From: Tupaia tana
Taxonomy: Eukaryota; Chordata; Mammalia; Scandentia; Tupaiidae
NCBI GenBank assembly: GCA_026018925.1
Contig: JAKSZU010000009.1
Coordinates: forward strand, 77,718,408-77,782,407
Direction: 5' to 3'
Length of the DNA stretch: 64,000 nucleotides
The translations under genes were made by a program, and so were the position numbers. Below the pieces are notes generated by a model, which worked only from the letters and a program-made list of their open reading frames with translations, searched no databases and was not told the DNA's origin. This document shows, piece after piece, positions 13,055 through 60,106 of this stretch; position 1 is the stretch's first letter; the number at the start of each line of letters is the position of its first letter.

Positions 13055-13070
13055 AAATTTTTTAAATGTA

Positions 13071-13076
13071 TTTATT
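13071..13076 (-). promoter_or_regulatory. Polyadenylation signal of inner L1
   Basis: TTTATT on the plus strand, i.e. AATAAA on the element's strand, 16 bases before its 3' terminus. Confidence 0.6.
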
Positions 13077-13469
13077 ATCATCATAATCTTGTTTATATTA
13101 CATTGAATCACATATAACTTTACAGTGTATTACATTGCTTTTTCAAAAGGGAATGCCATGCATGTCACTCAATACAGAGACACTAAAGTCCCCACTTCAT
13201 CATTCAATATCTTTCCATTTTCCCCCCAATCATTATTATTATTATTATTATTCCAATTATTTTTTTTTCTTTCATTTATTTATTTTTACATTTGTCCACA
13301 AAGATTTACTTTACATAGCAAAAAATTTTAGCTCATACTCCATAATTCTTGACAGTTTACAAACAACTTTCAAAATTTCAAAATACTGAATATTAAAGAT
13401 AATGTTCAAAATATGTCTTACAATTTTGTATAATTTTATAACTCTATAACAACAGAAGCACTATGGTTT

Positions 13470-13472
<3 letters not shown>

Positions 13473-13521
<49 letters not shown>
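13473..13521. repeat. (TA)n microsatellite
   Basis: About 24 TA units directly next to the end codon of inner L1 ORF2. Confidence 0.95.
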
Positions 13522-13522
<1 letters not shown>

Positions 13523-13525
<3 letters not shown>

Positions 13526-16500
13526 GAGTGCAGACACTCGGTATATATTAAGTGGGGATGTACAATGCCTCTCCTTCATAGCATGGCTTGCTTCAGTGAG
13601 CAGTAAGTCTTCCATATTCATCCACTTCCTTTCAAAAGCCAGGGGTTTGTTGTTTTTTATGGATGAATAGTATTCCATTGAGTATATGTGCCACAGGTTT
13701 TCTAACCATTCATCAGTTCGTGGGCATTTAGGTTGTTTCCATGACAGCAATCGTGAAAAGTGCTACAATAAACATCGATGTGCAAGCACTTTTTCGATTA
13801 AGTATTCTTCTGACATTTGGGTAGATACCAAGGAGTAGGATTGCTGGATCATATGGTAGTTCTATTTGTAGATTTTGGAGGAATCTCCAAATTGTTCTCC
13901 ACAGTGGTTGGACCAATTTACAATCCCACCAGCAGTGTAAGAGAATTCTCTTTTCACCACACCCCCTCCAGCACTTATCATTTTTTGTTTTTTTAATCTT
14001 AGACATTCTGACTGGGGTTAGGTGATATCTCATTGTTGTTTCTTTCTTCATTTCTCTTACAATGAGGGATGTTGAGCATTTTTTAATATGCCTTTTAGCT
14101 ATTTGTATGTCATCTTTAGAGAGTGGCTTTTTCAACTCATTCTTCCATCTTTTAATAGAATTGATTGTCTTTTTCTGGAACAGTTGCTTGAGTTCCTTGT
14201 GAATTCTGGTTATCAGTCCCTTGTCTGATGCATAGTTTACAAAAATATTTTCCCATTCTGAGGGCTGTCTGTTCACACTAATCACTAGGTCTTTTGCCAT
14301 GCAGAAACTTCTTAGTCTGATGTAATCCCACTTGTCTACTTTAGGGATCATAGACTGTGCATTGGGAGTCTTATTTAAGAAGTTTTCCCCTACCCCAATG
14401 TCTCCCAGATTTTCCCCGGTGTTTTCCAAGAGCAGTTTTATAGTTTGAGGTCTTAGATTTAGATCTTTGATCCACCTTGACTTTATTTTTGTCAGAGGTG
14501 AGAGGTAGGGGTTCAGACTCATCTTTCTGCAAGTGGCGATCCAGTTTTGCCAGCACCATTTGCTGAAGAGGTATTCCTTTTCCCACTGAATTGACTGGTA
14601 CCCCTTGTCAAAAATCATTTGGCTGTATGTTTGAGCATTCATTTCTGGGGACTCTATTCTGTTCCATTGGTCCACCTGTCTGTTCCTGTACCAGTACCAT
14701 GCTGTTTTGATTACCACAGCTTTGTAGTATATTTTTGGGTCAGGGATTGAGATGCCACCCACTCCACTCTTCTTGTGCAGAACTGCTTTGGCAATATGGG
14801 GTCTTTTATGATTCCAGACAAACGTTATGATTGTCTTTCCTAGATCTGTAAAGAATGTGTCTGGTACTTTGATTGGCATTGCATTATATAGGTAGATTAA
14901 TTTGGGTAAAATTGCCATTTTGATTATATTAATTCTTCCAATCCAGGAACATGGGATGTCCTTCAACTTTTTTATGTCATTTTCAATTTCTTTTTTTATC
15001 TCCTCATAGTTTTTCTTGTGGAGGTCTTTAACTTCTTTCATTAGATTTATCCCTAAGTATCTTATACTTTTTTTGGCTATGGTAAATGGAACAACTTTTT
15101 TCAGTTCTATCTCAGTCTGCCTGTTGTTTGTATACAGAAATGCTATAGATTTCTGGATATTAATTTTGTAGCCTGCAACATTACTGTATTCATGTAAATT
15201 TTTTTATGGAAACCATTGGGTCTTCTATGTATACAATCATGTCATCTGCAAATAGAGAGTTTCACCTCTTCTTTTCCTATTTGAATGCCTTTTATTTTTT
15301 CCTCTTTTCTGATGGCAATGGCCAAGACTTCTAGTACTATATTGAAGAGGAGTGGAGAAAGTGGACATCCTTGTCTTGTACCTGTTTTCAGTGGAAAAGC
15401 TTTCAGCTTTTCTCCATTCAGGATGATGTTCGCTATGGGTTTTTCATAGATAGTTTTTATTGTGTTGAGAAATGACCCCTGTATGCCGATTTTGCCGAGA
15501 GTCTTGATCATGAAGGGATGCTGTATCTTATCAAATGCTTTTTCTGCATCAATTGATATGACCATATGGTTTTTATCTTTCTTCCTATTAATATGGTGTA
15601 TTACATTTATGGTTTTGCATATGTTGAACCAACCTTGCATTCCTGGGATAAAGCCTACCTGATCATGATGTATAATCTTTTTATAAGTTGTTTTATACAG
15701 TTTGCTAGTACCGTGTTGAGAATATTCGCGTCTATATTCATCAGGGATATTGGTTTATAGCTTTCCTTCTTTGTCCTGTCCTTATCTGTTTTAAGGATAA
15801 GGGTGATAGAGGCTTCATAGAATGAATTAGAGAGAGATTCACCCTTTTGGATATTTAGAAATAACTTGAGCAAATGGGGGTTAACTCTTCTTTGAAAGTT
15901 TTGTAAAATTCAAAGGTGAATCCATCAGGGCCAGGGCTTTTCTTTGTTGGGAGGTTATTTATAACTGATTTGATCTCCTGGCTTGTTGTGTATCTATTCC
16001 GACTTTCTATGTCCTTCCGGCTCAATCTAGGTAGATTATACATGTCCAGAAATTTGTCCATCTCATCCAAATTATCTTGTTTCTTGGCATACAGATGTTC
16101 ATAGTACCCTCTAATAATTATTTCTATTTCTACTATGTCTGTTGTTATTTTGCCTACTTCATTGCAGATCTGATCCACCTGGTTCTTTTCTCTCTTCTTC
16201 TTAATAAGTCTCAACAGTGGTGTATCAATTTTGTTTATCTTTTCAAAGAACCAACTTTTACTTTCATTTATCTTCTGTATAGTTCGTTTATTTTCTATTT
16301 CATTTATTTCTGCTTGTATCTTTATTATTTCCTTTCTCCTGGAGTTTTTTGGATCTTTTTGCTGTTGCTTTTCCAATTATGTGAGGCATGATGTTAGGTT
16401 ATCCATTTGACTTCTTTCCATGCTCCTCTTATGTGCACTAATTGCTATGAAATTCCCTCTTATGACTGCTTTAGCAGTGTCCCAAAGATTATGGAAACTC

Positions 16501-17350
16501 GTGTCCTCATTGTCATTGGCTTCCATGAACCCTTTGATTTCAGTCTTTATTTCTTCAGTAGTTGTGGAGTCATTCAGGAGTAGGTTATTTAGTTTCCATG
16601 TATATGAATATTTTTGAAGATTTCTCTTGAAATTAAACTCAAGTTTAATTCCATGATGGTCAGAGAAGATGCTGGGAATAGTTTCTATGCCTTTGAATCT
16701 GTAGAGGCTTGCTTTGTGCCCAATAATGTGGTCAATCTTCAAGAATGTTCCATGTGGTGGTGAGAAAAAAGTGTATCTCGAGGTTTTGGGATGGAAATTT
16801 CTATAGATGTCTGTTAAGTCCATTTGATTTATGATCTCATTTAGATCTTTTATCTCTTTACCTATTTTTTGTCTATATGATCTATCCAGGGGGGATAGTG
16901 CAGTGTTCAGGTCTCCAACAATTAGTGTGCTGCAGTCTATCTCCCTTTTTAGATCTAGCAGTCTTTCCTTCACATATTTGGGTGCTCCTGTGTTAGGCAC
17001 ATAGATATTAATAAGCATTATATCTTCTTGATCCTTTTACTACAATATAGTGCCCTTCTTTGTCTCTTCGAACAGTTTTTGTTTTAAAGCCTATTTTGTC
17101 AGAGATTAGTATTGCGTCTCCAGCTCTTTTTTGGTTCCCATTTGCATGGAAAATCTGTTTTCCAACCCTTCACTTTCAGTCTATGTATATCTTTATCCAT
17201 GAAGTGGGTTTCCTGTAGGCAACAGATAGAGAATTTTTGTTTTTTAACCCACTCAGCCAGTCTGTGTCTCTTGATTGGAGAGTTTAATCCATTAACATTC
17301 AATGTCATTATCGATGTTAATGGATCTGTCCCGACGTTTAAGTTGGCCAT
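13523..17350 (-). pseudogene. Inner L1 ORF2 (endonuclease-reverse transcriptase), nearly full length, frameshifted
   Basis: The ATG at 17348-17350 to the stop at 13523 is about 1,275 codons, the normal ORF2 length. Order on the minus strand: endonuclease (MTLNVNGLN and LQETHFMDKD at 17350-17099; [13 protein letters not shown] and [11 protein letters not shown] at 17018-16377); linker and RT entry (16376-15855, [15 protein letters not shown]); RT core (15640-15242, [20 protein letters not shown]); [13 protein letters not shown] near 15255, two bases out of frame; then 437 uninterrupted codons (15041-13728) ending with the zinc-knuckle-like [14 protein letters not shown]. Frame breaks occur near 17020-17100, 16376, 15860, 15650, 15255, 15195 (with a small deletion) and 13740. 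All key catalytic motifs survive, so inactivation is fairly recent compared with the outer L1. Confidence 0.9.
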
Positions 17351-17394
17351 TGTCTTAGTTGCCTTTTACTCTTTTGTTTCTGGCTGTTACTTCT

Positions 17395-18355
17395 TTAGTT
17401 TTTCTGGAACAGTACTTTCTTCAGGGTTTCATGGAGAGCTGGCCTGGTGCTGGCAAATTCTTTCAGGTTTTGTTTGTCAGAGAAGATTTTAATCTTTTTA
17501 TTTCCATATGAAGGATAACCTTGCAGGATACAGTAATCTTGGTTGAAATTGTTTCTCTCTTAACACTTTCAATACATCTTCCGATTCTTTCCTTGCTTGC
17601 ATGGTTTCCGTTGAGAAGTCCGGTGTTAGCCTGATGGGGTGACCTTTGTAAGTCACTTGTCATTTCTCTCTTGCCAGTTTTAGTATCTTATCTTTATCTG
17701 TAGTTTTAGCCAGTCTGGCTATGATATGCCTTGGGAAAGATCTTCCTGGGTTGATTCTATTTGGTGTCCTTTGAATTTCTTGTGTCTGGATGTTTGAGTG
17801 CCTCTCTATGTCTGGGAAATTTTCTTCCAAGATTTCATGGAATAGGTTTTCCATGGTCTTATTATTTTCTTCATTTTCTGGGATAACAATTATTCGGATG
17901 TTAGGACGTCTAATGGAATCTAGTAATTCTCGTATGTTATCTTCATTTTTTTTTGTTGTTATTTTCTCTATCTTTTTGGTGGTTTTCTCTAGGTCAGAAG
18001 TTTTATCTTCTACATCAGAGATTCGACCTTCATCATGGTCTAATCGGCTTTTAATACTTTCGAGAGAGTTTTTTATTTCCTGTATTACAGACTTCACCTC
18101 TAATAGTTCCGTGTTATTCTTCCTCAGCCTTTCTTCCTTCATATTGTAAAAGGACTTTCTCATCTGCTGTAGTTCATTGTCTCTTTTCTGTTCCAGCTTA
18201 TGGTACTTGTTCAACATGAATATTCTAAACTCTATCTCGGACATTTTGGTAACATCCTCTATTTTTTCAAGAAAAGAAAGGGAGTTACTGTGTTCCTTTG
18301 ATGGAGACATATTTCCTGCTTTATTCAGGCCTGAGGTTCTTCTACTTCTAAACAT
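17395..18355 (-). pseudogene. Inner L1 ORF1 (RNA-binding chaperone) with premature stops
   Basis: First in-frame ATG at 18353-18355 (MFRSRRTSG), stop at 17395-17397, about 319 codons, near the usual ORF1p size. Domains: a short N-terminal part, coiled coil (about residues 20-115, heptad-like NELQQMRKSFYNMKEE and GRISDVEDKTSDLEK), the RNA-recognition part (RRPNIRIIVIPENEE, FHEILEENFPDIERHS, QTQEIQRTPNR) and the C-terminal part beginning RLAKTTDKDKILKLAREK. Straight after this a Trp codon has become TGA (about 17659), and two to three more stops follow before the C-terminal KVLFQKN. The frame is open upstream of the ATG to 18451 without another ATG. The ORF1-ORF2 spacer is 44 bases. Confidence 0.88.
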
Positions 18356-18714
18356 TGGGAGATGTGTTCCCTTTGAAAAACCTTTTACAAGAACATTTCT
18401 TTGAATAGGAGAAAGTCTGTTTCCTTTCTGATGTGGAATGGAGACAGCCAAAGTCTCTCATCAATTGTGTTTAGTTATGTAATAAGAGAAAAGGTGTACA
18501 AGGAAATGTATCTCCTACTTCGCAGGTGGTTCAGTGAAATGGAGGATTCTAGAGAGTCTTAAAATGTTAAAATATTTCAGAATTGTAATTCAAAATGTAT
18601 ATAGACAGCCAGAGATGGTGTAGATAAAGAAAGTGAGGACTGAATAAGTGTAAAGAAAATAATAGGAAGAATAAAGAAAAAGTCACGCACCGCACACTAG
18701 CGTGACGAGCGATT
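18356..18714 (-). other. Inner L1 unique 5' leader
   Basis: About 360 bases between ORF1 and the first 5' monomer, not repeated elsewhere in the window. A/T-rich apart from a small CpG cluster at 18682-18710. Expected to be the last part of the L1 5' UTR before ORF1. Confidence 0.65.
18682..18706. promoter_or_regulatory. CpG-bearing inverted repeat at the leader/array boundary
   Basis: GTCACGC at 18682-18688 is the exact reverse complement of GCGTGAC at 18700-18706, with an 11-base loop. TAGCGTG (18698-18704) fits the TNGCGTG core bound by the aryl-hydrocarbon receptor, and TGACG is a half CRE. It lies at the point where the repeated promoter monomers give way to the unique leader. A regulatory role is inference. 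Confidence 0.35.
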
Positions 18715-21700
18715 TTGTCAGGGGTCGAAAGATGGAACTGTGGTGTGGTAGAACTGAGGGAGTTCCTATGTGTTAATCAGAAGAGAGAAATTTACAAATG
18801 AAAGACGTGGGTATGGGAACAGAAAAAGAAAGGAAAAACAAAAAAAAAAGGGAACCTGGCTTAAAGAGGGGTGTCTGGCTTAGAGGTCCAGAGGCTGAAG
18901 CTACTGGGGGCAGACCTCCCTCAAAGTTCCTGGCCCAGGGGTTGAAAGATGGGAGTATGGTGTGGTAGAACTAAGGGTGTTCCTATGTGTTATTCAGAAG
19001 AGAGAAATTTACAAATGAAAGACATGGGTAGGGGAACTTAAAAAGAAAGGGGAAAAAAAAAAAAAAAAAACAGAACCTGGCTGAAAGAGGGGTGTCTGGC
19101 TTCGACATCCTGGGGTTGAAACTACTGTGGGCAGTGTTCCCAGGAAGGTCCTGGCCCAGGGGTTGAAAGATGGGAGTGTGGTGTGTTAGAACTGAAGGCG
19201 TTCCTATGTGCTAATCAGAAGAGGGAAATTTACAAATGAAAGACCTGGGTATGGGAACTGAAAAAGAAAGGAAAAACAAACAAAAAAGAGAACCTCCTTG
19301 AAATAAGTGTGTCTGGCTTGGAGGTCCCGGGGCTGAAGCTCCTGGGGGCAGTCCTCCCTCGAAGTTCCTGGCCCAGGGGTGGAAAGATGGGAGTGTGCTA
19401 TGGTAGAACTGAGGGTGTTCCTATGTGTTAATAAGAAGAGAGAAATTTACAGATGAAAGACGTGGGTACAGGAACTGAAAAAGAAAGGAAAAAACAACAA
19501 AAAAAAGTTAACCTGGCTGAAAGAGTGGTGTCTGGCTTGGAGGTCCCGGGGCTGAAGCTACTAGGGGCAGTCCTCCCTCGAAGTTCCTGGCCCAGGGTTT
19601 GAAAGATGGGAGTGTAGTGTGGTAGAACTGAGGGCATTCCTATGTGTTAATCAGAAGAGAGAAATTTACAAATGAAAGATGTGGGTATGGGAACTGAAAA
19701 AGAAAGGAAAAAGAAGAAAAATAGTGAATCTGGCTGAAAGAGGGGTGTCTGGTTTGGAGGTCCCGGGGCTGATGATACTGGGGGCAGTACTCCCTCAAAG
19801 TTCCTGGCCCAAAGGTTGAAAAATAGGAGTGTGATGTGGTAGAACTGAGGGCGTTCCTATGTTTTAATCAGAAGAGAGAAATTTACAAATGAAAGACGTG
19901 AGTAAGGGAATTGAAAAAGGAAAAACAAAAGAAATGTGAACCTGACCAAAGAGGGGTGTCTGGCTTGGAGGTCTTGGTGCTGAAGCTCCTGGGGGCAGTC
20001 CTCCCTCGAAGTTCCTGGCCAAGGTGTCGAAAGATGGGAGTGTGGTGTGGGAGAACTGAGGCGTTTCTATGTGTTAATCAGAAGAGTGAAATTTACAAAT
20101 GAAAGACGTGGGTACAGGAATTGAAAAAGAATGGTAAAACAAACAAAAAAAAGTGAACCTGGCTGTAAGAGGGTTGTCTGGCTTGGAGGTCCCAGGGCTG
20201 AAGCTAATGGGGGCTGTCTCTCCTTAAAGTTCCTGGTCCAGGGGTCGAAAGATGGGAGTGTGGTGTGGTAGAATTGAGGGCGTTCCTATGTGTTAATCAG
20301 AAGAGTGAAATTTACAAATGAAAGACGTTTGTACTGGAACTGAAAAACAAAGGAAAAGCAAAAAAAAAAAAATGTGAACCTGGCTAAAAGAGGGTTGTCT
20401 GGCTTTGAGGTCCCTGGGCTGAAACTACTGGAGACTGGCCTCCCTCAAAGTTCCTGGCCCAGGGTTTGAAAGATGGGAGTGTAGTGTGGTAGAACTAAGG
20501 GTGTTCTTATGTGTTAATCAGTAGAGAGTAATTTACAAATGAAAGACGTGGGTATGGGAACTGAAAAAGAAATTTAAAAAGAAAAAAAAAAAGTGAACCT
20601 GGCTGAAATAGTGGTGTTTTCCTTGGAGGTCCCGGGTCTGAAGCTACTGAGGGCAGTCCTCCCTTGAAGTTCCTGGCCCAAAGGTCGAAAGATTGGAGTG
20701 TGGTGTGGTACAACTGAGGGCATCCCAACATATTAATCAGAAGAGAGAAAGTTACAAATGAAAGACATGGGTATGGGAACTGAAAAAGAAAGGATAAATA
20801 AAAAAAAAGTGAACCTTGCTGAAAGAGGGGTGTCTGGCTTGGATGTCCCGGAGCTAAAGCTACTGGGGGAAGTCCTCCCTTGAAGTTCCTGGCCCAGAGG
20901 TCGAAAGATGGGAGTGTGCTGTGGAAGAACTGAGGGAGTTCCTATGTGTTAATCAGAAGAGTTAAATTTACAAACGAAAGACATGGCTATGGGAACTGAA
21001 AAAGAAAGGAAAAAGAAGAAAAACAGTGAACCAGTCTGAAAGAGAGGTGTCTGGCTTGGAGGTGCCGGGCTGAAGCTACTGGAAGCAGTCCTTCCTCGGA
21101 GTTCCTGGCCCAAGGGTCGAAAGATGGGAGTGTGGTGAGGTAGAACTGAGGCCGTTCCTATGTGTTAATCAGAAGAGAAAAATTTACAAATGAACGATGT
21201 GGGTACGGGAACTGAAAAAGAAAGGACAAACAAAAGAAAAAGTGAACCTGGCTGAAATAGGGTTGTCTGGCTTGGAGGTCCTGGGGCTGAAGCTACTGTG
21301 GGCAGTCCTCCCTCGAAGTTCCTGGCCCAGGGGTCGAATGGTGAGAGTGTGGTGCGGTAGAACTTAGTGCGTTCCTAGGTGATAATCAGAAGAGAGAAAT
21401 TTACAAATGAAAGACGTGGGTACGGGAACTGAAAAATAAAGGAAAAACAAAAAAATATGTGAACCTGGCTGGAAGAAGGGCATCTGGCTTGGAGGTCCCG
21501 GGGCTGAAGCCACTGGGGCAGACTTCCCTCAAAGTTCCTAGCCCTGGTGTCCATAGATTTGAGTGTGGTGTGGTAGAACTGAGGGTGTTCCTATGTGTTA
21601 TTCAGAAGAGAGAAATTTACAAATGAAAGATGTGGGTATGGGAACAGAAAAAGAAAGGAAAAACAAGAAAAAAAAGGAAACCTTGCTGAAAGAGGGGTGT

Positions 21701-24440
21701 CTGGCTTGGAGGTCCCGAGGCTGAAGCTACTTGGGGCAGTCCTCCGTTGAATTTCCTGGCTCAGGTGTCAAAAGATGGGAGTGTGGTTTGGTAGAACTGA
21801 GGGCGTTCCTATGTGTTAATCAGAAGAGAGAAATTTACAAATGGAAGACTTGGGTAAGGGAACTGAAAACGAAAGGAAAAACAAACAAAGAAAAAAAAAC
21901 AGTGAATCTGACTGAAAGAGGGGTGTCTGGCTTGGAAACCCCAGGGCTGACGCTACTGGGGGCAGTCCTCCTTCGAAGTTCCTGACCCTGGGGTCTAAAG
22001 TTAGGCGGGTGGTGTGGTAGAACTGAGAGCGTTCCTATGTGTTAATCAGAAGAGAGAGATATTTACGAATGAAAGATGTGGGTACAGGAAATGAAAAACA
22101 AAGGAAAAACAAAAAAAAAATAAAGTGAACCTGGCTGAAAGAGGGGTGTCTGGCTTGGAGGTCTCAGGGCAGAAACTACCGGGGACATTCCTCCCTCGAA
22201 GTTCCTGACCCAGGGGTTGAAAGATGGCAGTGTGGTGTGGTAGAACTGAGGGCGTTCCTATGTGTTAATCAGAAGAGAGAAATTCACAATTGAAAGACGT
22301 GGGTGTGGGAAATAAAAAAGAAAGGAAAAACAAAAAAAATAGTGAACCTGTCTTAAAGAGCGGTGTCTGGCTTGGAGGTCCTGGGGCTGAAGCTACTGGG
22401 GGTAGTTCTCCCTCGAAGTTCCTGGCCCATTGGTCCAAAGATGGGAGTGTGGTGTGGTAGAACTGAGGGCGTTCTTATGTGTTAATCAGAAGAAAGAAAT
22501 TTACAAATGAAAGACTTGGGTATGGGAACTGAAAAAGAAAGAAAAAACAAACAAAAAATGTGAACCTAGCTGAAAGAGGGGTGTCTGACATGGAGGTCCC
22601 AGGGCTGAATCTACTGGGGGCAGTCCACCCTCGAACTTCCTGGCCCAGGGGTCAAAAGATGGGAGTGTGGTGTGGTAGAACTGAGGGCGTTCCTAGGTGT
22701 TAATCAGAAGAGAGATATTTACAAATGAAAGACGTGGGTATGGGAACTGAAAAAGAAAGGAAAAACAAGAAAAATAGTGAACCTGGCTGAAAGAGGGGTG
22801 TCTGGTTTGAAGGTCCCGGGGATGAAGGTACTGGGGGCAGTCCTCCCTCAAAGTTCCTGGCCCAGTGGTCAAAGATGGGAGTGTAGTGTGGTAGAACTGA
22901 AGGCGTTCCTAAGAGTTAATCAGAAGAGAGAAATTTACAAATGAAAGACGTGGGTATAGGAACTGAAAAAGAAAGGAAAAACAAAAAAAAAAGTTGAACC
23001 TGGCTGGAAGAGGGGTGTCTGGCTTGGAGGTTCCGGGGCTGAAGCTACTGGGGACAGTCCTCCCTCAACGTTCCAGGGCCAGGGGTGGAAAGATGGGAGT
23101 GTGGTGTGGTAGAACTGAGGGCATTCCTAGGTGTTAATCAGAAGAAAGAAATTTACAAATGAAAGACATGGGTATGGGAATTGAAAAACAAAGGAAAAAC
23201 AAAAACAAAAAAAAGTGAACTGGCTGAAAGAGGGGTGTCTGGCTTGGAGATCCCGGGGCTGAAGCTACTGGGGGCAGTCCTCCCTCGAAGTTCCTGGCAC
23301 AGGGATCAAAAGATGGAAGTATGGTGTGGTAGAACTAAGGGCGTTCCTATGTGTTATTCAGAAGAGAGAAATTTACAAATGAAAGACGTGGGTACTGGAA
23401 CTTAAAAAGAAAGGAAAAACAAGAAAAAAAAAAAAAAACTGAACCTGGCTGAAAGAGGGGTGTCTGGCTTGGAGTTCCTGGGGCCAAAACTACTGTCGGC
23501 AGTCTACCTTCGAAGGTCCTGGCCCAGGTGTCGAAAGATGGGAGTGTGGTGTGGTAGAACTGAGGGTGTTCCTATGTGTCAATCAAAAGAGAGAAATTTA
23601 CAAATGAAGGACATGGGTACAGGAACTTAAAAAGAAAGGAAAAAAACAAAAAACTGACCCTGGCTGAAAGAGGGGTGTCTGGCTTGGACGTCCTGGGGTT
23701 GAAACTACTGTGGGCAGTCTTCCCTCGAAGGTCCTGGCCCAGGGGTTGAAAGATGTCAGTGTGGTGTGGTAGAACTGAAGGTGTTCCTATGTGTTAATCA
23801 GAAGAGCGAAATTTGCAAATGAAAGACATGGGTATGGGAACTGAAAAAGAAAAGAAAAACAAACAAACAAAAAAGTGTACCTGGCTGAAATAAGTGTGTC
23901 TGGCTTGGAGGTCCTTGGGCTGAAGCTACTGGGGGCAGTCTTCCCTTGAATTTCCTGGCCCAGGGGTCGAAAGATAGGAGTGTGGTTTGGTAGAACTGAG
24001 GGCGTTCCTATGTGTTAATCAGAAGAGAGAAATTTACAAATGAAAAACGTGGGTATGGGAACTGAAAAAGAAGGAAAAAAAAAAAAAAACAAGAAAAAAA
24101 GTGAACCTGGCTGAAAGAGGGGTGTCTGGTTTGGAGTTCCCAGGGCTGAAGCTACTGGGGGCAGTCCTCCCTGAAGTTCCTGGCCCAGTGGTCAAAGATG
24201 GGAGTGTGGTGTGGTAGAACTGAGGGCATTCCTATGTGTTAATAATAAGAGAGAAATTTACAAATGAATTAATTGGGTAAGGAGACAGAAAAAGAAAGGA
24301 AAAAAAAAGTATACCTGGTTGAAAGAGGGGTGTCTGGCTTGGGGGTCCCTTGGCAGAAACTACTGGGGGCAGTCCTCCCTCGAAGTTCCTGACCCAGGGG
24401 TCGAAAGATGGGATTGTGGTGTGGGAGAACTGAGGACGTT
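18715..24440 (-). repeat. Inner L1 monomer array, proximal block of long monomers (about 216-222 bp)
   Basis: About 26 head-to-tail monomers. Anchor GAAAGATGG occurs at 18727, 18943, 19165, 19382, 19601 and onward, giving steps of 216, 222, 217 and 219. Plus-strand wording of a unit: CCTGGCCCAGGGGTCGAAAG, ATGGGAGTGTGGTGTGGTAG, AACTGAGGGCGTTCCTATGT, TTAATCAGAAGAGAGAAATT, ACAAATGAAAGACGTGGGTA, TGGGAACTGAAAAAGAAAGG, an A-rich stretch, GTGAACCTGGCTGAAAGAGG, GGTGTCTGGCTTGGAGGTCC, CGGGGCTGAAGCTACTGGGG. Units differ from each other at many positions, so this is old or repeatedly shuffled, not an assembly stutter. Repetition directly upstream of ORF1 is the layout of monomeric L1 promoters as known in mouse. 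Confidence 0.85.
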
Positions 24441-27400
24441 TCTGGCTGAAAGAGGGCTGTCTGGCTTGGGGGTCCTGCAGCTGAAGCTACTGGGGGCAGT
24501 CATCCCTCGAAATTCCTAGCCCAGGTGTTGAAAAATGGGAGTGTGTTGTGGTAGAACTGAGGGCTTTCATGTCTGAAAGAGGGGTGTCTGGTTGGGGTTC
24601 CTGGGGCTGTAGCTCCTGGGGGCAGTCCTCCCTCGAATTCCTGACCCAAGGGTCAAAAGTTGGGAAAGTTGCGTGGTAGAACTGAAGGCCTTCCTTGATT
24701 AATGAGGGGTGTCTGACTTGGGGGTGCCAGGGCTTAATCTACTGGGGCAATCCTCTCTAGAAGTTCCTGGCTCAGAGGTCGAACGATGGGAGTGTGGTGT
24801 GGTAGAACTGAGGGAATTCCTGGCTGAAAGAGGGATGTCTGGCTTAGGGGTCCCATGGCTGAAGTTACTGGGGACAGTCCTCTCTTGAAGTTCCAGGCCC
24901 TGGTGTGGAAAGATGGGAGTGTGGTGTGGTAGAACAGGGCGTTCCTGGCTGAAGAAGGGGTGTCTGGCTTGGGGGTCCCAGGGCTGAAGCTACTGGGGGC
25001 AGTCCTCCCTCGAAGTTCCTTTCCCAGCGGTCGAAAGATGGGCGAGTGGTCTGGTATAACTGAGGGCATTCCTGGCTGAAAGAGGGTTGTCTAGCTTGGG
25101 TGTCCCGGGACTGAAGCTACTGGGAGCAGTCCTCCCTCGAATTTACTGGCCCAGGGGTCGAAGGATGGGAGTGTGGTGTGGTTGAACTGAGGGCGTTCCC
25201 TTCTGTTCATCTTGCTGAGATCAGCGTGTCTGGCTTGGGGGTCCCGAGGCTGAAGCTACTGGGGGCAGTACTTCCTCAAAGTTCCTTCCCCAGGTGTCAA
25301 ACGATGGGAGTGTGGTGTGGTAGAACTGAGGGCGTTCATGGCTGAAAGAGGGGTGTCTGGCTTTGGGGTCCAGGGGCTGAATCTATTAGGCAGTCCTCCC
25401 TTGAAGTTCCTGTCCCAGAGTTCGAAAGATGGGAGTGTGGTCTGGTAGAACTGAGGGCGTTCCTATGTGTTAATCAGAAGACAGAAATTTACAAATGAAA
25501 CATGTGGGTAAGGGGACAGAAAAAGAAAGGAAGAACAGAAAAAAAGTGTGGCTTGTTGAAAGTGGGGAGTCTGACTTGGAGGTACTGGGACTGAAGCTAG
25601 TGGGGGCAGTCCTCCCTCGAAGTTCCTGTCCCAGGGTTCGAAAGATAGGAGTGTGGTGTGGTAGAACTGAGGACATTCCTGGCAGAAATAAGGGTGTCTG
25701 GCTTTGGGGTCCCCGGGCTGTAGCTACTGGGGGCATTCCTCTCTCGAAGTTCCTGGCCCAGGGGTGGAAAGAAGGGAGTGTGGTGTTGTAGAAGTGAGGA
25801 CATTCCTGGCAGGGAAGTCCTCCCTCGAAGTTCCTGGCCCAGCGTTCGAAAGTTGGGAGTGTGGTGTGGTAGAACTGTGGGCATTACTATGTGTTAATCT
25901 GGCTGAAAGAGAGGTGTCTGGCTTGGGGGTTGAAGCTACTGGGCGCAGTCCTCCCTCGAATTTCCTGGTCCAGTGCTCCAAAGATGGGAGTGTGTTGTGG
26001 TAGAACTGAGGGCGTTCCTGACTGAAAGAGGGGTGTCTGTCTTGGGGGTCCCGGGGCTGTAGCTACTGGGGGCAGTCCTCCCTCGAAGTTTATGGCCAAG
26101 GGGTCGAAATATGGGAGTGTGGTGTGGTAGAACTGAGGGCTTTCATGTCTGAAAGGGGGGTGTCTGGCTTGGGGTTCCTGGGGCTGAAGCTACTGGGGGC
26201 AGTCCTCCCTCGAATTCCTGACTCAGGGGTCACAAGATGGGAGAGTGGCGTGGTACAACTGAGGGCCTTCCTAGCTGAATGATGGGTGACTGTCTTGGGG
26301 GTGCCTGTGCTGAATCTACTGGGGGCAATCCTCCCTCAAAGTTCCTGGCCCAGGGGTCGAACGATGAGAGTGTGGTGTGGTAGAACTGAGGGAATTCCTG
26401 GCTGAAAGAGGGGTGTCTAGCTTAGGGGTCCCGTGGCTGAAGTTACTGGGGGCAGTTCTCTCTCAAATTCCAGGCCCCAGTGTCGAAATATGGGAGTGTG
26501 GTGTGGTAGAACTAAGGGCGCACCTGGCTGAACGAGGGGTGTCTGGCTTTGCGGTCCAGGGGCTGAAGCTACTGGGAGCAGTCCTCCGTCGAAGTTCCTG
26601 GCCCAGGGGTCGAACGATGGGAGTGTGGTGTGGTAGAACTGAAGGCGTTCCTGGCTGAAAAAGGGGTGTCTGGCTTAGGTGTCCCGTGACTGAACTTACT
26701 GGGGGCAGTCCTCTCTCAAAGATCCAGGCCCAGGTGTCCAAAGATGGGAGTGTGGTGTGGTAAAACTGAGGGCGCACCTTTGTGATAATTAGAAGAGAGT
26801 AATTTACAATTGAAAGACATGGGTAAGGGTACAGAAAAAGAAAGGGAAAAAAAACGAGTACCCGGCTGAAAAGGGGGTGTCTAACTTGAAAGTCCCAGGG
26901 CTGAATCTACTGGGGCAGTCCTCCCTTGAAGTTCCTAGCCCAAAGGTCGAAAAATGGGAGTGTGGTGTGGTAGAATGGAGGGCTTTCATGGCTGAAAGAG
27001 GGGTATCTGACTTGGGGGGGTCTCGGGGCTGAAGCTACAGGAGGCAGTCCTCCCTTGAAGTTTCTGGCCCTGGGGTCGAAATATGGGAGTTTTCTGTGAT
27101 AGAACTGAGGGCGTTCCTGCCTAAAAGAGGGGTGTCTGGCTTCTGGCTTGGGGGTCCCGGGGCTGAAGCTACTGGGGGCAGTCCTCCCTCGAAGTTCCTG
27201 GCCTAGGGGTCGAAAGATGGGAGTGTGGTGTGGTAGAACATAGGGCATTACTATGTGTTAATCTGGCTGAAAGAGAGGTGTCTAGCTTGGGGGTCCCTGA
27301 GTAGAAGATAATGGGGGCAATCCTTCCTCGAAATTCCTGGCACAGAGGTTGAACATGTGAGAGTGGCGTGGTAGGATATGAGGGTGTTCCAGACTGAAAG

Positions 27401-37599: not shown

Positions 37600-40500
37600 A
37601 GTGTGGTATGGTAGAACGCAGGTCGTTACAGGCTGAAAGAAGGGTCTGGCTTGGGGGTCCCGGGGCTGAATCTATTGGGGGCAGTACTCACTCGAAGTTT
37701 CTGGCACAGCGGTCAAAAGATGGGAATGTGGTGTGGTAGCACTGATGGCGTTCATGGCTGAAAAAGGGTTGTCTAGTTGGGGGTCTCTGGGCTGCAGCAA
37801 CTGGGGGCAATCTTCCCTCGAAGTTCCCGGCCCAGGGTTCGAAAGATGGGAGTGTGGTGTGGTAGAACTGAGGGCGTTCCTATGTGTTGATCTGGCTGAA
37901 AGAGGGGTGTTTGCCTAGGGGGTCCAGGAGAAGAAACTAATGGGGGAAGTCCTGAATCGAAGGTCCTGGCCCAGAGGTTGAAAATGGGAGTGTGGTGTGA
38001 TAGAACTGAGGCTGTTCCTGGCTGAAAGAGGGTTGTCTGGCTTGGGGGTCCTGGGGCAGAAGCTACTGAGGGCAATCCTCCCTCGAAGTTCCTGGCCCAG
38101 GTGTCAAAAGATGGGAGTGTGGTGTGGTAGAACTGAGGGCGTTCCTATGTGTTAATCTGGCTGAAAGCGGGGTGTCTGGCTTTGGGTTCCTGAGGCTGAA
38201 GCTACTGGGGGCAATCCTTCCTCAAAGTTCCTGGACCAGGGGTCGAAAGTTGGGAGTGTGGTTTGGTAGAACTGAGGGCATTTATGGCTGAAAGAGGGGT
38301 GTCTGGCTTGGCGGTCCTGGGGCTGAAGCTAAAGGGAGCAGTCCCCCCTCGAAGTTCCTGGACCAGGTTGCGAAAGATGGGAGTGTGTTGTGGTAGAACT
38401 GATGGCATTCCTTGCTATAATAGGGGTGTCTGACTTGGGGGTCCAGGGGCTGAAGCTACTGGGGGCAGTCCTCCCTCGAACTTCCTGGCCCAGGGCTTGA
38501 AAGATGGGTGTGTGGTGTGGTAGAACTGAGGCATTTCTGGCTGAAAGAGGGGTGTCTTGCTTGGGAGACCCGGGGTGAAGCTACTGGGGGCAGTCCACCC
38601 TCGAAGTTCCTGGTCCAGGGGTCGAAAATCGGGATTGTGGTATGGTAGAACTGAGGGCATTCCTGGCTGAAAGAGGGGTGTCTGACTTGGGAGTCCCTTC
38701 CTGGCTCAAAGAAGAGTGTCTGGCTTGGGGATCCCGGGGCTGAAGCTACTAGGGGCAGTCCTCCCTTGACGTTCCTGGCCCAGGGTTCAAATGATGGGAG
38801 TGTGGTGTGGAAGAACTGATGGAGTTCCTATGTGTTAATCAGAAGAGAGAAATTTATAAATGAAAAACATGGGTAAGGGGACAGAAAAAGAAAGTAAAAA
38901 AAAAAAAAAAAAGTGTACCTGGCTGAAAGAGGGGTGTCTGGCTAGGAGTTCCAAGGGCAGAAGCTACTGGAGGCAGTCCTCCCTCGATGTACCTGGACAA
39001 GGGGTCGAAAGATGGGATTATAGTGTGGTAGAACTGAGGGCGTTCATGTCTGAAAGAAGGGTGTCTGGCTTGGGGGTGCCGGGGCTGAAGCTACTAAGGG
39101 CAGTCCTCTCTCGAAATTCTCTTCCCAGGTATCAAAAGATGGGAGTGTGGTGTGGTAGAACTGAGGGCGTTCCTTGCTGAAAGAGGGATGTCTGGCTTGG
39201 GGGTCCTTAGGCTGAAGTTACTGGGGGCAATACTCCCTCGAAGCTCCAGGCACAGGGGTCAAAAGATGGGAGTGTGTTGTGGTAGAACTGAGGGCGTTCA
39301 TGGCTGAAAGAGGGGTGTCTGGCTTGGCGGTCCCGGGGCTGAAGCTATTAGGGCAGACAGCCCTCGAAGTTCCTGGCACAGGTGTAAAAAGATGTGAGTG
39401 TGGTGTGGTATATCTGAGGGCATTCCTGGCTGAAAAAGGGTTGTCTGGCTTGGGGGTCCTTCGATTGAGGCTACTGGGGGCAGTCCTACCTTGAAGTTCC
39501 TGGCCCAGGGTTCGAATGATGGGGAGTGGGGTGTGGTAGAACTGATGGCGTTCCTATGTGTAAATCAGAGGAGAGAAATTTATAAATGAAAAACGTGGGT
39601 AAGGGGACAGAAAAAGGGAGTAAAAAAGAAAAGTGTACCTGGGTGAAAGAGGGGTGTCTGGCTAGGAGGTCCCAGGGCAGAAGCTACGGGTGGTAGTCCT
39701 CCCTCGATGTACCTGGACAAGGGGTCAAAAGATGGGATCGTAGTGTGGTAGAACTGAGGGCGTTCATGGCTGAAAGAGGGCTGTCAGGCTTTGGGGTCCC
39801 GGGGCTGAAGCTACTGGGGGCAGTCCTCCCTCGACGGTTCTGTCCCAGGAGTCAAAAGATGGGTGTGTGGTGTGGTAGAACTGAGGGCGTTCCTGTCTAA
39901 AAGAGGGTTGTCTGGCTTGGGGGTGCTGGGGCTGAAGCTACTGGGGGCAGTCCTCTCTCGAAATTCTAGGCCCAGGGGTCAAAAGATGGGAGTGTGCTGT
40001 GGTAGAACTGCGGGCATTCCTGGCTGAAAGAGGGATGTCTGGCTTGGGGGTCCTGGGGCTGGAGCTACTGGGGGCAATCCTCCCTCGAAGTTCCTGGCCC
40101 AGGGATCGAAAGATGGGAGTGTGTTGTGGTAGAACTGAGGGCATTCTTATGTGTTAATCTGGCTGAAAGAGGGGTATCTTGCTTGGGGGTCCCGACGCTG
40201 ACGATACTGGTGGCAGTCCTTCGAAGTTCGTGTCCCAGGAGTTGAAAGATGGGAGTGTGGTGTGGTAGAACTGAGGGCGTTCATGGCTGAAAGAGGGGTG
40301 TCTGGCTTGGTAGTCCCAGGGCTGATGCTATTAGGGCAGACATTCCTCGAAGTTCCTGGCCCAGGTGTAGAAATATGGGAGTGTGTTGTGGTATAACTGA
40401 GGGTGTTCCTGGCTGAAAAAGGGTTGTCAGGCTTGGGGGTCCTGCGGCTGAAACTACTGGGGGCAATCCTCCCTCGAAGTCCTGGACCAGGGGTCGAAAA

Positions 40501-48239: not shown

Positions 48240-51200
48240 GGCGTTCCTATGTGTTAATCTAGCTGAAAGAAATGTGTCTGGCTTGGGTGACCCGGAGCAG
48301 ATGCTAATGGGGGCAGTCCTCCCTCGACGTTCCTGGCCCAGTGGTCAAAAATGGGAATGTGGTGTGGTAGAACTGAGGGCGATCATGACTGAAAGAGGGG
48401 TGTCTGGATTTGGGGTCCCGGGGCGGAAGCTACTGGGGGCAGTCCTCCCTCATAGTTCATGGCCCAGGGATCGAATGATGGAAGTGTGGTGTGGTAGAAC
48501 TGAGGGCGTTCCTGGCTGAAAGAGGGGTGTCTGGCTTAAAGGTCCCGTGGCTGAAGCTACTGGGGGCAGTCCTCCCTCGAAGTTTCTGGCCCAGGGTTCG
48601 AAAGATGGGAGTGTGGTGTGGTAGAACTGAGGGCGTACCGATGTGTAAATCTTGCTGAAAGATGGGTGCCTGGCTTAGGGGTCCCGGGGCTGAAGCTACT
48701 GGGGGCAGTCCTCCATCGACGTTCCTGGCCCTGGGTTCAAAAAATGGAAGAGTGTTGTGGTAGAACTGGTGGCGTTCATGGCTGAAAGTGGGGAGTCTGG
48801 CTTGGGAGTCCTGGGGTTGAAGCCATTAGGGCAGTCCTCCCTCGATGTTCGTGGCCCAGGGGATGAAAAATGGGAATGTGGTGTAGTAGAATGGAGGGTG
48901 TTCATGGCTGAAAGAGGGGTGTGTGGCTTGGGGGTTCCGGGGCTGAAGCTACCGGGGGCAGACTTTCCTCAAAGTTTCTGGACCATGGTTCGAAAGATGG
49001 GAGTTTTGTGTGGTAGAAAAGAGGGCGTTCTTGGCTGAAAGAGGGGTGTCTGGCTTGGGGGTCCTGGGGCTCATGCTACTGGGGGCAGTCCTCCCTCGAC
49101 GATCCTGGCCCAGGGGTGGAAATATGGAAGTGTGGTGTGGTAGAACTGAGAGCGTTCTTATGTGTTAATCTGGCTTAAAGAAGGGTGTCTGGCTTGGGGG
49201 TCCTGGACGAGAAGCTAATGAGGTTAGTCCTCCTCAAACTTCCTGGCCCAGAGGTCAAAAATGGAGTGTGGTGTAGTAGAAGTGTGTGTGTTCCTGGCTG
49301 AAAGAGGGTTGTCTGACTTGGGGGTCCTGGGGCTGAAGCTACTGGGGGCAATCCTCCCTCGAAGTTCCTGGCCCAGGTTTCAAAAGATGGGAGTGTGGTT
49401 TTGTAGAATTGAGGGAGTTCATATGTGTTAACTGGAAGAGAGAAATTTACAAATGAAAGACGTGGGTAAGGGGACAGAAAAAGAAAGGAAAAACAAAAAA
49501 AAAGTGTACCTGGCTGAAAGAGGGGTGTCTGGCTTGGAGGTCCCAGGGCTGAAGCTACTGGGAGAAGTCCTCCTTTGAAGTTCCTGGGCCAGGGGTCGAA
49601 AGATAGGAGTGAAGTGTGGTAGAACTGAGGGAGTTCATGGCTGAAAGAGGGTTGTCTGTCTTGGGGGCACCGGGGCTGAAGCTACTGGGGGAAGTCCTCC
49701 CTCGAAGTTCCTGGCCCAGGGGTTGAAAGTTGGAAGTGTGGTGTGGTAGAACTGCGGGCGATCCTGGTTGAAAGAGGGGTGTCTGGATTGGGGGTCCAGG
49801 AGCTGAAGCTACTGGAGGCCGTCCTCCCTAGAAGTTTCTGGCCCAGGGATCAAACGTTGGGAGTTTGTTGTGGTATAACTGAGGGTGTTCATGGCTGAAA
49901 CGGGTGACTGGCTTTCTGGTCTTGTGGCTGAAGTTACTGGGGGCAGTCCTCTCATGAAGTTCTAGACCCAGGTGTCGAAACATGCGAGCGTGGTGTGGAA
50001 GAAATGACAACAACGTTCCTGGCTGAAAGAGGAGTGTCTGGCTTGGGGGTCCTGGGGCTGGAGCTACTCGGGGCAGTCCTCCCTCGAAATTTATGGCCCA
50101 GAGGTCGAAGGATGAGAGTGTGGTGTGGTAGAACTGAGGGCGTTCACAGCTGAAAGAGGGGTGTCTGGCTTGGGGGTCCTGTCCTGCCTGAAAGAGGGTT
50201 GACTGGCTTGGGAGTCCCGGGGCTGAAGCTACTGGGGGCAGTCCTCCCTCGAAGTTCCTGGCCCAGGGGTTGAAAGATGGGTGTGTGGTGTGGTAGAACT
50301 GAGAGCATTCCTGGCTGAAAGATGGCTGTCTAGCTTGGGGGTCCTGGTGTTTTAGCTACTGGGGGCAGTCTTCCCTCAAAGTTCCTGAACCAGGGGTCGA
50401 AAGATGGGAGTAATGTGTTGTAGAACTGAGGGCATTCCTGGTTCAAAGAGGGTTGTCTGGCTTGGGAGTCCCGGGGCTGAAGCTACTGGGGGCAATCCTC
50501 CCTCGAAGTTCCTGGCCCAGGTGTCGAAAGATGGGAGTGTGGTGTGGTAGAACTGAGAGCATTCCTGGATGAAAGAGGGGTGTCTGTCTTGGTGGTCCTC
50601 GGGCTGAAGCTACGGAGGGCATTCCTTCCTCGAAGTTTCTGGCCCAGGGGTCGAAAGATGGGAGTGTGGTGTGGTAGAACTGAGGCCATTCCTATGTGTT
50701 AATCTAGCTGAAAGAGGTGTGTCTGGCTTGGGTGACCTGGAGCAGAAGCTAATGGGGGCAGTCCTCCCTCAAACTTCCTGGCCCAGTGGTCAAAAGTGGG
50801 AGTGTGGTTTGGTAGAACTGAGGGCATTCATGACTGAAAGAGGGGTGTCTGGATTTGGGGTGCCGGGGCGGAAGCTACTGGGGGCAGTCCTCCCTCATAG
50901 TTCATGGCCCAGGGGTCGAAAGACGGGAGTGTGGTGTAGTAGAACTGAGGGCGTACCGATGTGTAAATCTGGCCAAAAGAGGGGTGTCTGGCTTAGGGGT
51001 CCTGGGGCTGAAGCTACTGGGGGCAGTCCTCCCTCAACGTTCCTGGCCCCGGGTTTGAAAAATTGGAGAGTATTGTGGTAGAACTGATGGCGTTCATGGC
51101 TGAAAGTGGGGAGTCTGGCTTGGGAGTCCCGGGGTTGAAGCTATTAGGGCAGTCCTCCCTCGATGTTCGTGGTCCAGGGGATGAAAGATGGGAGTGTGGT

Positions 51201-54200: not shown

Positions 54201-54900
54201 TCCCGGGGCTCATGCTACTAGGGGCAGTCCTCCCTCGACGATCCTGGCCCAGTGTTAGAAAGATGGGAGTGTGGTGTGGTAGAACTGAGGGCCTTCTTAT
54301 GTGTTAATCTGACTTAAAGAAGGGTGTCTGGCTTGGGGGTCCTGGAGGAGAAGCTAATGAGGGCAGTCCTCCCTCGAACTTCCTGGCCCAGAGGTCGAAA
54401 ATGGGAATGTGGTGTAGTAGAAGTGAGTGTGTTCCTGGCTGAAAGAGGGTTGTCTGGCTTGGGGGTCCTGGGGCTGAAGCTACTGGGGGCAATCCTCCTT
54501 CGAAGTTCCTGGCCCAGGGGTCGAAAGAAGGGAGTGTGGTTTGGTAGAACTGAGGGCGTTCATATATGTTAACTGGAAGAAAGAAATTTCCAAATGAAAG
54601 ACTTGGGTAAGGGGACAGAAAAAGAATGGAAATACAAAAAAAAAAAGTGTACCTGGCTGAAACAGGGGTGTCTGGCTTGGAGGTCCCAGGGCTGAAGCTA
54701 CTGGGGGAAGTCCTCCTTCGAAGTTCCTGGGCCAGGGGTCGAAAGATGGGAGTGATGTGTGGTAGAACTGAGGGCATTCATGGCTGAAAGAGGGTTGTCT
54801 GGCTTGGGGGGTCCCGGGGCTGAAGCTACTGGGGGCAGTCCTCCCTCGAAGTTCCTGGCCCAGGGCTTGAAAGTTGGAACTGTGGTGTGGTAGAACTGAG
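48240..54900. repeat. Three-copy higher-order block (about 48.3, 50.7 and 53.5 kb)
   Basis: GCTTGGGTGACC with GAGCAGA(A/T)GCTAATGGGG occurs at 48281, 50726 and 53548 (steps 2,445 and 2,822). The downstream full-length monomers with CATAT(G/A)TGTTAACTGGAAG occur at 49421, 51613 and 54562 (steps 2,192 and 2,949). Unequal steps show gain or loss of single monomers inside blocks. Confidence 0.75.
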
Positions 54901-55440
54901 GGCGTTCCTGGCTGAAAGAGGGGTGTCCTGCTTGGGGATCCCGGAGTTGAAACTACTAGGGGCAGTCCTCCCTCGAAATTTCTGGCCCAGGAGTCGAAAT
55001 ATGGGAGTGTGCTGTGATAGAACTGAGGGCGATCCTGTCTAAAATAGGGGTGTCTGTCTTAGGGGTCCCGGGGCTGAACCTACTGGGGGCAGTTCTTCCT
55101 CTAAATTCCTGGCCCAGGGCTCAAACGATGTGAGTGAGTGTTGTTAGAGCTGAGGGCGTTCCTGACTGTAAGAGGCATGTCTGGCTTGGGGACCTGGGGC
55201 TGAAGCTACTGGGGAAAGTCCTCCCTTGAAATTCCTGCCCCAGGGGTCGAAAGATGAGAGTGTGGTGTGGTAGAACTGAGGGCTTTCCTAGCTGAAAGAT
55301 GGGTGTCAGTGTTGGGGGTGCTGGGGCTGAATCTATTGCGGGCAGTCCTCCCTCGAAGTTCCTGGCCTAGGGGTCGAAAGTTGGAAGTGTGGTGTGGTAG
55401 AACTGAGGGCGTTACTGGCTGAATGAGGGGTGTCTGACTT

Positions 55441-56734
55441 TGAGGTCCCAAGGCTGACGCTACAGGGGGCAGTAATTTCTCGAAGTTCCTGGCCCATGGG
55501 TTGAAACATGGGAGTGTGCTGTGTTAGAACTGAGGGCGTTTCTGGCTGAAAGAGGGGTGTCTGGCTTGGGGGTCCCAGAGCTGAAGCTATAGGGTTCAGT
55601 CCTCCCTCGAAGTTTCTGTTCCAGTGGTCGAAAGATGGGAGTGTGGTGTTGTAGAACTGAGGGCCTTCCTAGTTGAAAGAGGGGTGTCTGGCTTGGGGGA
55701 GCCAGGGCTGTATCTACTGGGCGCAGTACTCCCTCGAAGTTCCTGGCCCAGGGATTGAAAAATGGGATTGTGGTGTGGTAGAACTGAGGGCATTCCTGGC
55801 TGAAAGAGGGGTGTCTGGCTTGGGTGTCCCGGGGCTGATGCTGCTGGGTTCAGTACTCCCTTGATGTTCCTGGCCCAGAGGTCGACAGATGGGAGTGTCG
55901 TGTGGTAGAACTGAGGGCGTTCCTATGTGTTAATCTGGCTGAAAGAGGGGTGTCTTTCTAGGGGGTCCCAGAGCTGATGCTACTGGGGGCCGTCCTCCCT
56001 CGAAGTTACTGTCCCAGGGGTCGAAAGATGGGAGTGTGGTGTGGTTGAACTGAGGGTGTTCCTGGCTGAAAGAGGGGTGTCTGGCTTTGAGGTCCCAACA
56101 CTGACGCTACAGGGGGCAGTACTTTCTCGAAGTTCCTGGCCCATGGGTCGAAACATGGGAGTGTGCTGTGTTAGAACTGAGGGCGTTTCTGGCTGAAAGA
56201 GGGGTGTCTGGCTTGGGGGTCCCGGGGCTGAAGCTATAGGGCTCAGTCCTCCCTCGAAGTTTCTGGTCCAGTTGTCGAAAGATGGGAGTGTGGTGTTGTA
56301 GAACTGAGGGCCTTCCTAGTTGAAAGAGAGGTGTCTGGCTTGGGGAAGCCAGGGCTGTATCTACTGGGCGCAGTACTCCCTCGAAGTTCCTGGCCCAGGG
56401 ATTGAAAAATGGGATTGTGGTGTGGTAGAACTGAGGGCATTCCTGGCTGAAAGAGGGGTGTCTGGCTTGGGTGTCCCGGGGCTGATGCTGCTGGGTTCAG
56501 TACTCCCTTGATGTTCCTGGCCCAGGGGTCGACAGATGGGAGTGTCGTGTGGTAGAACTGAGGGCGTTCCTATGTGTTAATCTGGCTGAAAGAGGGGTGT
56601 CTTTCTAGGGGGTCCCGGAGCTGATGCTACTGGGGGCCGTCCTCCCTCGAAGTTACTGTCCCAGGGGTCGAAAGATGGGAGTGTGGTGTGGTTGAACTGA
56701 GGGTGTTCCTGGCTGAAAGAGGGGTGTCTGGCTT
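55441..56734. repeat. Recent 647-bp tandem duplication at the 5' edge of the array
   Basis: 55441-56087 and 56088-56734 are near-identical, each about five monomers. Shared private variants include CTGACGCTACAGGGGGCAGT, GTCGACAGATGGGAGTGTCG (55881 and 56528) and GGGCTGTATCTACTGGGCGC. Similarity here is clearly higher than between ordinary neighbours. Confidence 0.85.
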
Positions 56735-56802
56735 GGGGGTCCCGGGGCTGAAGCTGTTGGAGGCAGTCCTCCCTCGATTTTCTTGGCCTACGGTTCAAAA
56801 AC

Positions 56803-56818
56803 GAAAAGCTGTTTTTTT
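56803..56818. repeat. Right target-site duplication of the inner L1
   Basis: GAAAAGCTGTTTTTTT, the second copy of 13039-13054. To its left the inner array ends inside a truncated monomer (CTTGGCCTACGGTTCAAAAA). To its right the outer L1's own monomers resume. Confidence 0.75.
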
Positions 56819-57304: not shown

Positions 57305-57319
57305 GTTTTTTGTTTTTTT

Positions 57320-57365
<46 letters not shown>
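57305..57365. repeat. Poly-T tract inside an outer L1 monomer
   Basis: Nearly pure T for about 60 bases, grown from the shorter T-run present at this place in every long monomer. Confidence 0.95.
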
Positions 57366-57371
<6 letters not shown>

Positions 57372-60089: not shown

Positions 60090-60106
60090 TTTTATCATTG
60101 ATTTAT
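60090..60106. repeat. Right target-site duplication of the outer L1
   Basis: TTTTATCATTGATTTAT, identical to 6587-6603. The following AATG gives a TTTAT|AA cut site and the ancient L1 continues from here. Confidence 0.85.

Follow-up and report, generated by a model that had tools for sequence, protein, structure and literature searches.

Mouse LINE-1 (L1) promoters of the L1Md types A, G and T are built of tandem monomers followed by a tether and open reading frame 1 (ORF1), and the monomer number varies among copies. Ten or fewer monomers are found in 99% of them, and the longest promoter reported, at mm10 chr3:6,296,898-6,308,206, has 50 Type A monomers, for which its authors favour an origin by unequal crossing-over; this process is said there to exist with certainty for L1 monomers, yet without quantitative support (PMC6454616). 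Potentially active mouse TF, GF and A elements have maxima of 12, 15 and 17 monomers, respectively (PMC2894050). The stretch analysed here, a window of 64,000 nucleotides of the Tupaia tana genome (C1197:77,718,408-77,782,407; one 2.95-Gb assembly of 1198 contigs, over which all genome searches were made), holds an L1 with the same order of parts. Unlike in mouse L1Md, its array counts about 264 units and 38 kb, the units are mostly 127 bp and not about 200 bp long, and the monomer holds a GT-AG segment, which is missing from most units of the ORF1-distal zone.

Loss of a 5' untranslated region (UTR) segment between splice sites, followed by retrotransposition, is described for the spliced integrated retrotransposed L1 elements (SpIREs), which lose sequence required for expression and generally cannot move again (PMC5860796). 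The monomers of the window would resemble SpIREs in the kind of loss, but each unit keeps a 127-bp exon and the shortened units have multiplied in tandem. The macrosatellites DXZ4 and D4Z4 are likewise long tandem arrays (PMC3081327, PMC12963445); unlike theirs, the origin of the window array is visible, as it is still joined to the L1 whose predicted promoter it forms. In the PMC literature, covered mostly by listings and passages, no L1 array of more than 50 monomers and no intron-bearing monomer was noticed. The kind of structure is known, mouse promoters with as many as 50 monomers having been published; what differs here is the array size, a monomer that bears an intron and a clock within the element. 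The intron-like segment and the apparently faster clock of the array are new leads drawn from sequence.

Two nested L1 elements

All L1 parts described here lie on the minus strand. The inner L1 extends from 56,802 (5' end) to 13,055 (3' end; 43.7 kb), and its parts follow each other, in L1 sense, as array, leader, ORF1, ORF2 and 3' end. The interrupted ORF1 (17,405-18,451) matches Pfam Transposase_22 (PF02994, E 7.7e-22), as LINE-1 ORF1 does. The interrupted ORF2 (13,745-17,350) has the endonuclease (PF03372, E 2.2e-6 and 5.5e-8) and reverse transcriptase (RVT_1, PF00078, E 7.6e-20) domains of LINE-1 ORF2, in pieces; two of the seven proteins scanned against Pfam had no match. Between ORF1 and the monomers lies a unique leader, or tether, of 237 bp (18,452-18,688), and the head-to-tail array occupies 18,689-56,800 (38.1 kb), the largest L1-linked array examined in this analysis. 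The leader stretch 18,452-18,765 gave 1652 first-look candidates genome-wide, 40 of which were scored. The comparison with Rfam gave no match, and no relatives were matched in the viral_contigs and genome_contigs collections (one exact pattern each) or among plasmids.

A first-pass annotation of this DNA had described ORF2, ORF1, leader and monomers as collinear on one strand, which the domain matches and the order of the parts bear out. The ends it gave and its count of roughly 260 units were also right (264 near-complete units in 38.1 kb), while the three monomer classes, the two zones, the GT-AG segment and the 17-bp duplication of the outer L1 were absent from it.

An exact target-site duplication of 16 bp borders the inner L1 (13,039-13,054 on the 3' side and 56,803-56,818 on the 5' side), placed by the first-pass annotation, correctly, within one monomer of an outer L1. 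The insertion site reads as an L1-endonuclease-like T8/A6 target (T-run/A-run). The 16-mer belongs to the outer monomer and has 57 copies in the genome (reversed control 1). By itself it is therefore weaker evidence than the duplication of a unique site would be, and the insertion call leans also on the two flanks, which, once joined, continue one outer-L1 monomer. The outer element is an older full-length L1 (6,604-60,089), interrupted by the inner one and bounded by an exact 17-bp target-site duplication (6,587-6,603 on the 3' side, 60,090-60,106 on the 5' side). Its stretch 6,938-10,065 has 76% identity to the inner body, with further matches up to 11,611, and its ORF1 domain was recognised by the Pfam scan. 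Its own 5' UTR monomers, 24 anchored units across about 4.2 kb, lie at about 12,150-13,054 and 56,803-60,089. Two monomer-promoter L1s are nested here, and the inner one is an ordinary insertion into the promoter of the older, within its 5' monomers.

Monomer classes, relatives and probable local growth

Cyclic alignment cut the array into 273 segments. Units of about 127 bp (S) account for 186 of them, units of about 139 bp (M) for 35 and units of about 217 bp (L) for 43; the other 9 are partial, and one of these (56,801-56,830) is flank. At least 110 exon bases are present in 264 units. The proximal zone (18,689-24,441) consists of a partial unit and 26 long monomers, each with a 127-bp exon and a GT-AG segment of about 90 bp, whose place in most of the distal zone (24,442-56,800) is taken by intron-less units: 186 measure about 127 bp and 35 about 139 bp, next to 17 long and 7 partial ones. 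When at least 118 exon bases are required and the zones are cut at 24,450, with one straddling unit dropped, the counts are 26 proximal units, all L, and 237 distal units (185 S, 35 M and 17 L). In this one assembly the structure is, like a macrosatellite, a long tandem array at a single locus. Three 38-bp remnant units (50,146-50,183, 38,663-38,700 and 33,576-33,613) share one internal exon deletion and were probably copied by block duplication. A conserved YY1-like core was considered and is not supported, the motif CCATCTT being present but only 57th of 121 seven-mers for conservation.

The junction of short units had 4,697 genome matches with up to 3 mismatches (control 0), and that of long units 10,628 (control 0). 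All 12 distinct places among the first 100 short-junction matches listed were fetched, and ten of them hold 11 dispersed L1 copies. In 11/11 copies tandem monomers, 1-4 complete ones plus partial ones, stand directly 5' of ORF1 in the manner of mouse monomeric promoters, and the leader was found in 10 of the 11. From this linkage the array is predicted to be an L1 promoter. The first-pass annotation had asked whether short arrays sit 5' of other L1 copies or the monomers are only free satellite; they are L1-linked in every one of these copies. The 5' ends share no single exon position, being scattered over exon positions 22-86 in the 11 copies. Exon distances within an element are 0-0.024 in the five young relatives that could be compared.

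The other two of the 12 places are long arrays without visible L1. One runs from the start of contig C66 to about 53.6 kb, and the other covers C231 from 69,835,401 to about 69,897,900 (about 62 kb), where an assembly gap cuts it off about 0.7 Mb before the contig ends. In the C231 array (L012-L015, L029-L039) short units lie at the 5' end and long units after them, and divergence is about 1% in the sampled first 30 kb. Four clusters were probed from the first 100 long-junction matches listed, and these other arrays were sampled in slices. In C419 an array of 22.8 kb continues into a leader, ORF1 and ORF2; the search for its target-site duplication gave no more than an imperfect A-rich candidate. 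In C407 monomers are joined to an L1, with matches over 4 kb. The array in C297 is at least 37 kb long, its ORF1 side lying beyond the sampled part, and that in C442 is about 24 kb long and ends against ORF2 of an older L1, in opposite orientation (L057, C442:2,051,001-2,053,100), with no leader or ORF1 there; it is possibly a free satellite. Further clusters occur among the matches listed, for example at C375:24.08-24.10 Mb.

Growth of the array in place is well supported by its composition. A search of the 2.95-Gb genome for the 139-bp junction, with up to 3 mismatches allowed, gave 25 matches, every one of them within the window array, where alignment gives 35 copies; since the type is confined to this array, its amplification would have been local. 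Of the 237 distal units, 95 fall within seven duplicated blocks, all of which outscored the best of six unit-order shuffles; mean exon distances are 0.024-0.095, and unit types are concordant in 70/73 pairs. In the closest block duplication detected, five monomers at 56,062-56,708 are repeated at 55,415-56,061 (mean exon distance 0.024). Outside the blocks monomers are about equidistant (mean 0.181 overall and 0.181 between neighbours, i.e., at offset 1), and the nearest-neighbour median of 0.089, compared with 0.112-0.119 in five column shuffles, indicates some structure beyond a star, but little. The near-star pattern without neighbour similarity looks like fast amplification and not like slow neighbour-by-neighbour exchange. 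Rolling-circle reverse transcription of a back-spliced exon would be another conceivable route. The proposal in the first-pass annotation that the monomers expanded by unequal exchange thus holds for the local growth, for which the private 139-bp type and the seven blocks speak; unequal exchange as the process is inferred, and a slow form of it would not be expected to give the near-star phylogeny.

The GT-AG segment of the monomers

In L1 sense the long monomer has two parts, a 127-bp unit with CAGCCAG at its end and, after it, 90 bp that open with GT and close with AG. The short monomer corresponds exactly to the first part, so that most distal monomers are without precisely the 90-bp segment, as in the GT-to-AG losses of SpIREs. 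The 139-bp monomer retains the final 12 of the 90 bases and hence shares its left cut, the donor, with the short unit. The outer L1 family shows a corresponding loss: its long units read GCTAGCCAG followed by GTAGGC...CACCCAG and then GACAG, and its short units GCTAGCCAG followed directly by GACAG. One outer long monomer within the short-monomer zone (59,373-59,600) has TG and not AG at the 3' splice site. The inner and outer monomers are treated here as separate families; homology between them was sought in the exon (score 66, maximum of 200 shuffles 72.5) and in the intron (72, shuffle maximum 72.0) and is not significant.

RNA splicing before retrotransposition is the likeliest cause of the segment loss, as judged from these boundaries. 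When all deletions of 60-160 bp in the inner and 60-190 bp in the outer monomer are considered, 0.2-0.3% can be read as GT-AG. In frequency-based splice-site scores, no other donor within the monomer is better than the distal one, GTACAC. The segment is present in 9/12 elements examined (C407 included) and absent from three, and it lies on the ORF1 side in 8/8 dispersed relatives that have both kinds of junction; the relatives are biased towards the short junction, having been found by a short-junction search.

Several observations weigh against splicing. By the same scores the proximal donor GTTCAC is third and weak, and the acceptor used is third or fourth. The acceptor of the 139-bp type ends in TG in most present-day introns, and a broken GT or AG is not clearly more frequent among the introns kept in the distal zone (5/17) than in the proximal one (6/26). 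C stands at exon position 98 in 85% of the short units, but in 0% of the distal and 4% of the proximal long ones; the two kinds are thus distinct exon lineages and the losses old founder events. Late splicing of one very long RNA over the whole array can be dismissed on these grounds, together with the type concordance of the block pairs. Loss of DNA by deletion between direct repeats, of 3 bp in the inner family (AGG) and of 4 bp in the one outer monomer tested (CAGG), would give the short junction too, and the inheritance of types in duplicated blocks agrees with it. Among deletions at direct repeats of at least 3 bp, 0.8-1.7% per event would read as GT-AG by chance, more than among deletions at large and still few, and deletion would have had to remove the segment exactly from GT to AG in both families and to produce the identical left breakpoint of the 139-bp type. 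Deletion is accordingly the less likely origin of the short monomers, although a competitor to be taken seriously.

Divergence of the array and history of the locus

Private changes of the inner L1, counted against 10 relatives, are 34/1066, 32/1063 and 31/1059 at codon positions 1, 2 and 3 (3.0%), and such flat counts are neutral, as expected after insertion. The array is about 3-fold more diverged than this body, at 10.3% from consensus in the distal and 9.1% in the proximal zone. Leaving out CpG sites and matching base composition gives 9.25% for the distal array (7.9% by site medians), where 3.05% is expected. In C419 the body has 1.34% (21/1146, 17/1145 and 8/1135 by codon position, less flat) and the array 4.9% from 34 sampled exons, or 4.25% against 1.68% after the same correction. 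By substitution class the ratio of distal array to body is about 10 for A>T and T>A, 4.7 for G>T, 4.1 for C>G, 3.4 for C>A, 3.1 for T>G, 3.0 for A>C, 2.7 for G>A, 2.4 for C>T and 1.9 for G>C, but only 0.8 for A>G and 1.3 for T>C, with body counts of 3 to 22 per class. An array merely older than its L1 would have all classes raised; since A>G and T>C are near the body rate, the array is by that clock not older than the body. An array older than the insertion was therefore dropped, in view also of the neutral 3.0% body, the private 139-bp type and the relatives with 1-4 monomers. The class spectrum points, tentatively, to an array that once long mutated faster than the rest of the element and so looks older than it may be.

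This faster clock has points against it. The corrected proximal excess is smaller (7.15%, or 3.9% by site medians, against 3.02%), and founder variation among monomers may form part of the excess: in two older relatives, L019 and L020, with bodies about 1% old, the element's own monomers already differ by 0.016-0.078. The 139-bp units are 18% apart, above what an age of 3% allows, unless the array mutates faster or gene conversion spread the junction.

The mutation signature was expressed as non-CpG C>A plus G>T against C>T plus G>A. It is 34:29 in C66 and 24:16 in C231 (distinct variants) and 862:906 in the window distal array (counts, not distinct variants). The inner body (20:32) does not differ from its own array (p 0.16) and shares the C>A excess, so the signature does not separate array from body here, and as a mark of the array alone it is not supported. 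Bodies joined to long arrays (inner, 13,745-18,451, plus C419 and C407; L041, L050-L054) gave 37:54 against 9:66 in the bodies of short-array relatives (p 5e-5), and 17:22 against 9:66 without the inner one (p 3e-4), a grouping chosen post hoc, after the counts were known. The C>A excess would then mark array loci, L1 bodies included, rather than the array alone. Array and body are separated by A<>T against A>G plus T>C (357:96 vs 9:27, p 8e-11). In the proximal introns (18.8-24.4 kb) A>G and T>C reach 3.6-3.8%, compared with about 1% in exons, to which misalignment near the T-run may contribute.

Taken together, the locus is probably best explained by an insertion, local growth of the array, prior splicing of the intron and a faster array clock. 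Splicing of L1 RNA before the insertion appears to have removed the 90-nt GT-AG intron from the upstream monomers, while the ORF1-proximal ones would have kept it. The monomer-promoter L1 inserted into the promoter of the older L1, very likely with few monomers, like its relatives. The array would, again very likely, have grown in place to about 264 units by fast amplification, at or soon after the insertion, and duplications of multi-monomer blocks, by unequal exchange or replication slippage, strongly appear to have continued later. Shortened units seem to have come to form most of the array, and the long array may then have mutated faster than the rest of the element.

In a rival account the source L1 already had an array of about 38 kb, all of which was copied when an RNA of roughly 44 kb retrotransposed. 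This would account for the target-site duplication around the entire unit and for monomers mostly 18% apart, more than the 3.0% insertion age explains, with the 264 units still falling into 223 single-linkage clusters at distance 0.066. The account is improbable, since the relatives examined have few monomers, no other place in the assembly has the 139-bp type, A>G and T>C give the distal array no greater age than the body, and the array-to-body ratio is similar in C419, which is about half as old. For a pre-existing satellite imported into a short L1 array, whether through ectopic recombination or through break-induced replication, the arrays without visible L1 (C66, C231 and C442) are possible sources; such an import is rather more improbable still, as the 139-bp type is private to the locus and the C66/C231 exon consensus differs from the proximal consensus of the window at 11/127 positions and from the distal one at 10. 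That the assembly collapsed, expanded or misjoined the array to the L1 is highly improbable: another array (C231) does end in an assembly gap, but the window holds no N, units differing by about 18% make long reads placeable, and the same anatomy recurs in independent copies.

Beyond local insertion and growth, a broader scheme is conceivable, although it falls somewhat short of probable, in which the L1 family has intron-bearing monomers, spliced units are retrotransposed and amplified on site, and the products become faster-mutating, C>A/G>T-rich private satellites, some of which lose their L1. If so, long arrays would have two to three times the mutation rate of the L1 attached to them, the C>A/G>T-rich signature would reach from the array into the attached body, and a splicing-fed, self-accelerating path would lead from mobile element to satellite. 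Ideas on how satellites arise have mostly been guesses made from the finished array; at this locus the beginning and the outcome are still connected, with a target-site duplication, and the same genome has short L1-linked, long L1-linked and long L1-free arrays with divergences of about 1% to 10%. With the attached L1 body as a built-in clock, a satellite becomes datable from its birth through its growth to its decay. The 139-bp unit, private to the locus and as such evidence of growth at a site, bears on how L1 promoters gain monomers.

A third L1 fragment (ORF2; 61,709-63,739, minus strand) is 84.8% identical to the inner ORF2; its rates are near-equal at the three codon positions, and it serves as a neutral yardstick. 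One SINE-like repeat occurs near 61.06-61.35 kb and, 79-86% alike to that copy, at 12,526-12,776, 10,623-10,879 and 2,147-2,439.

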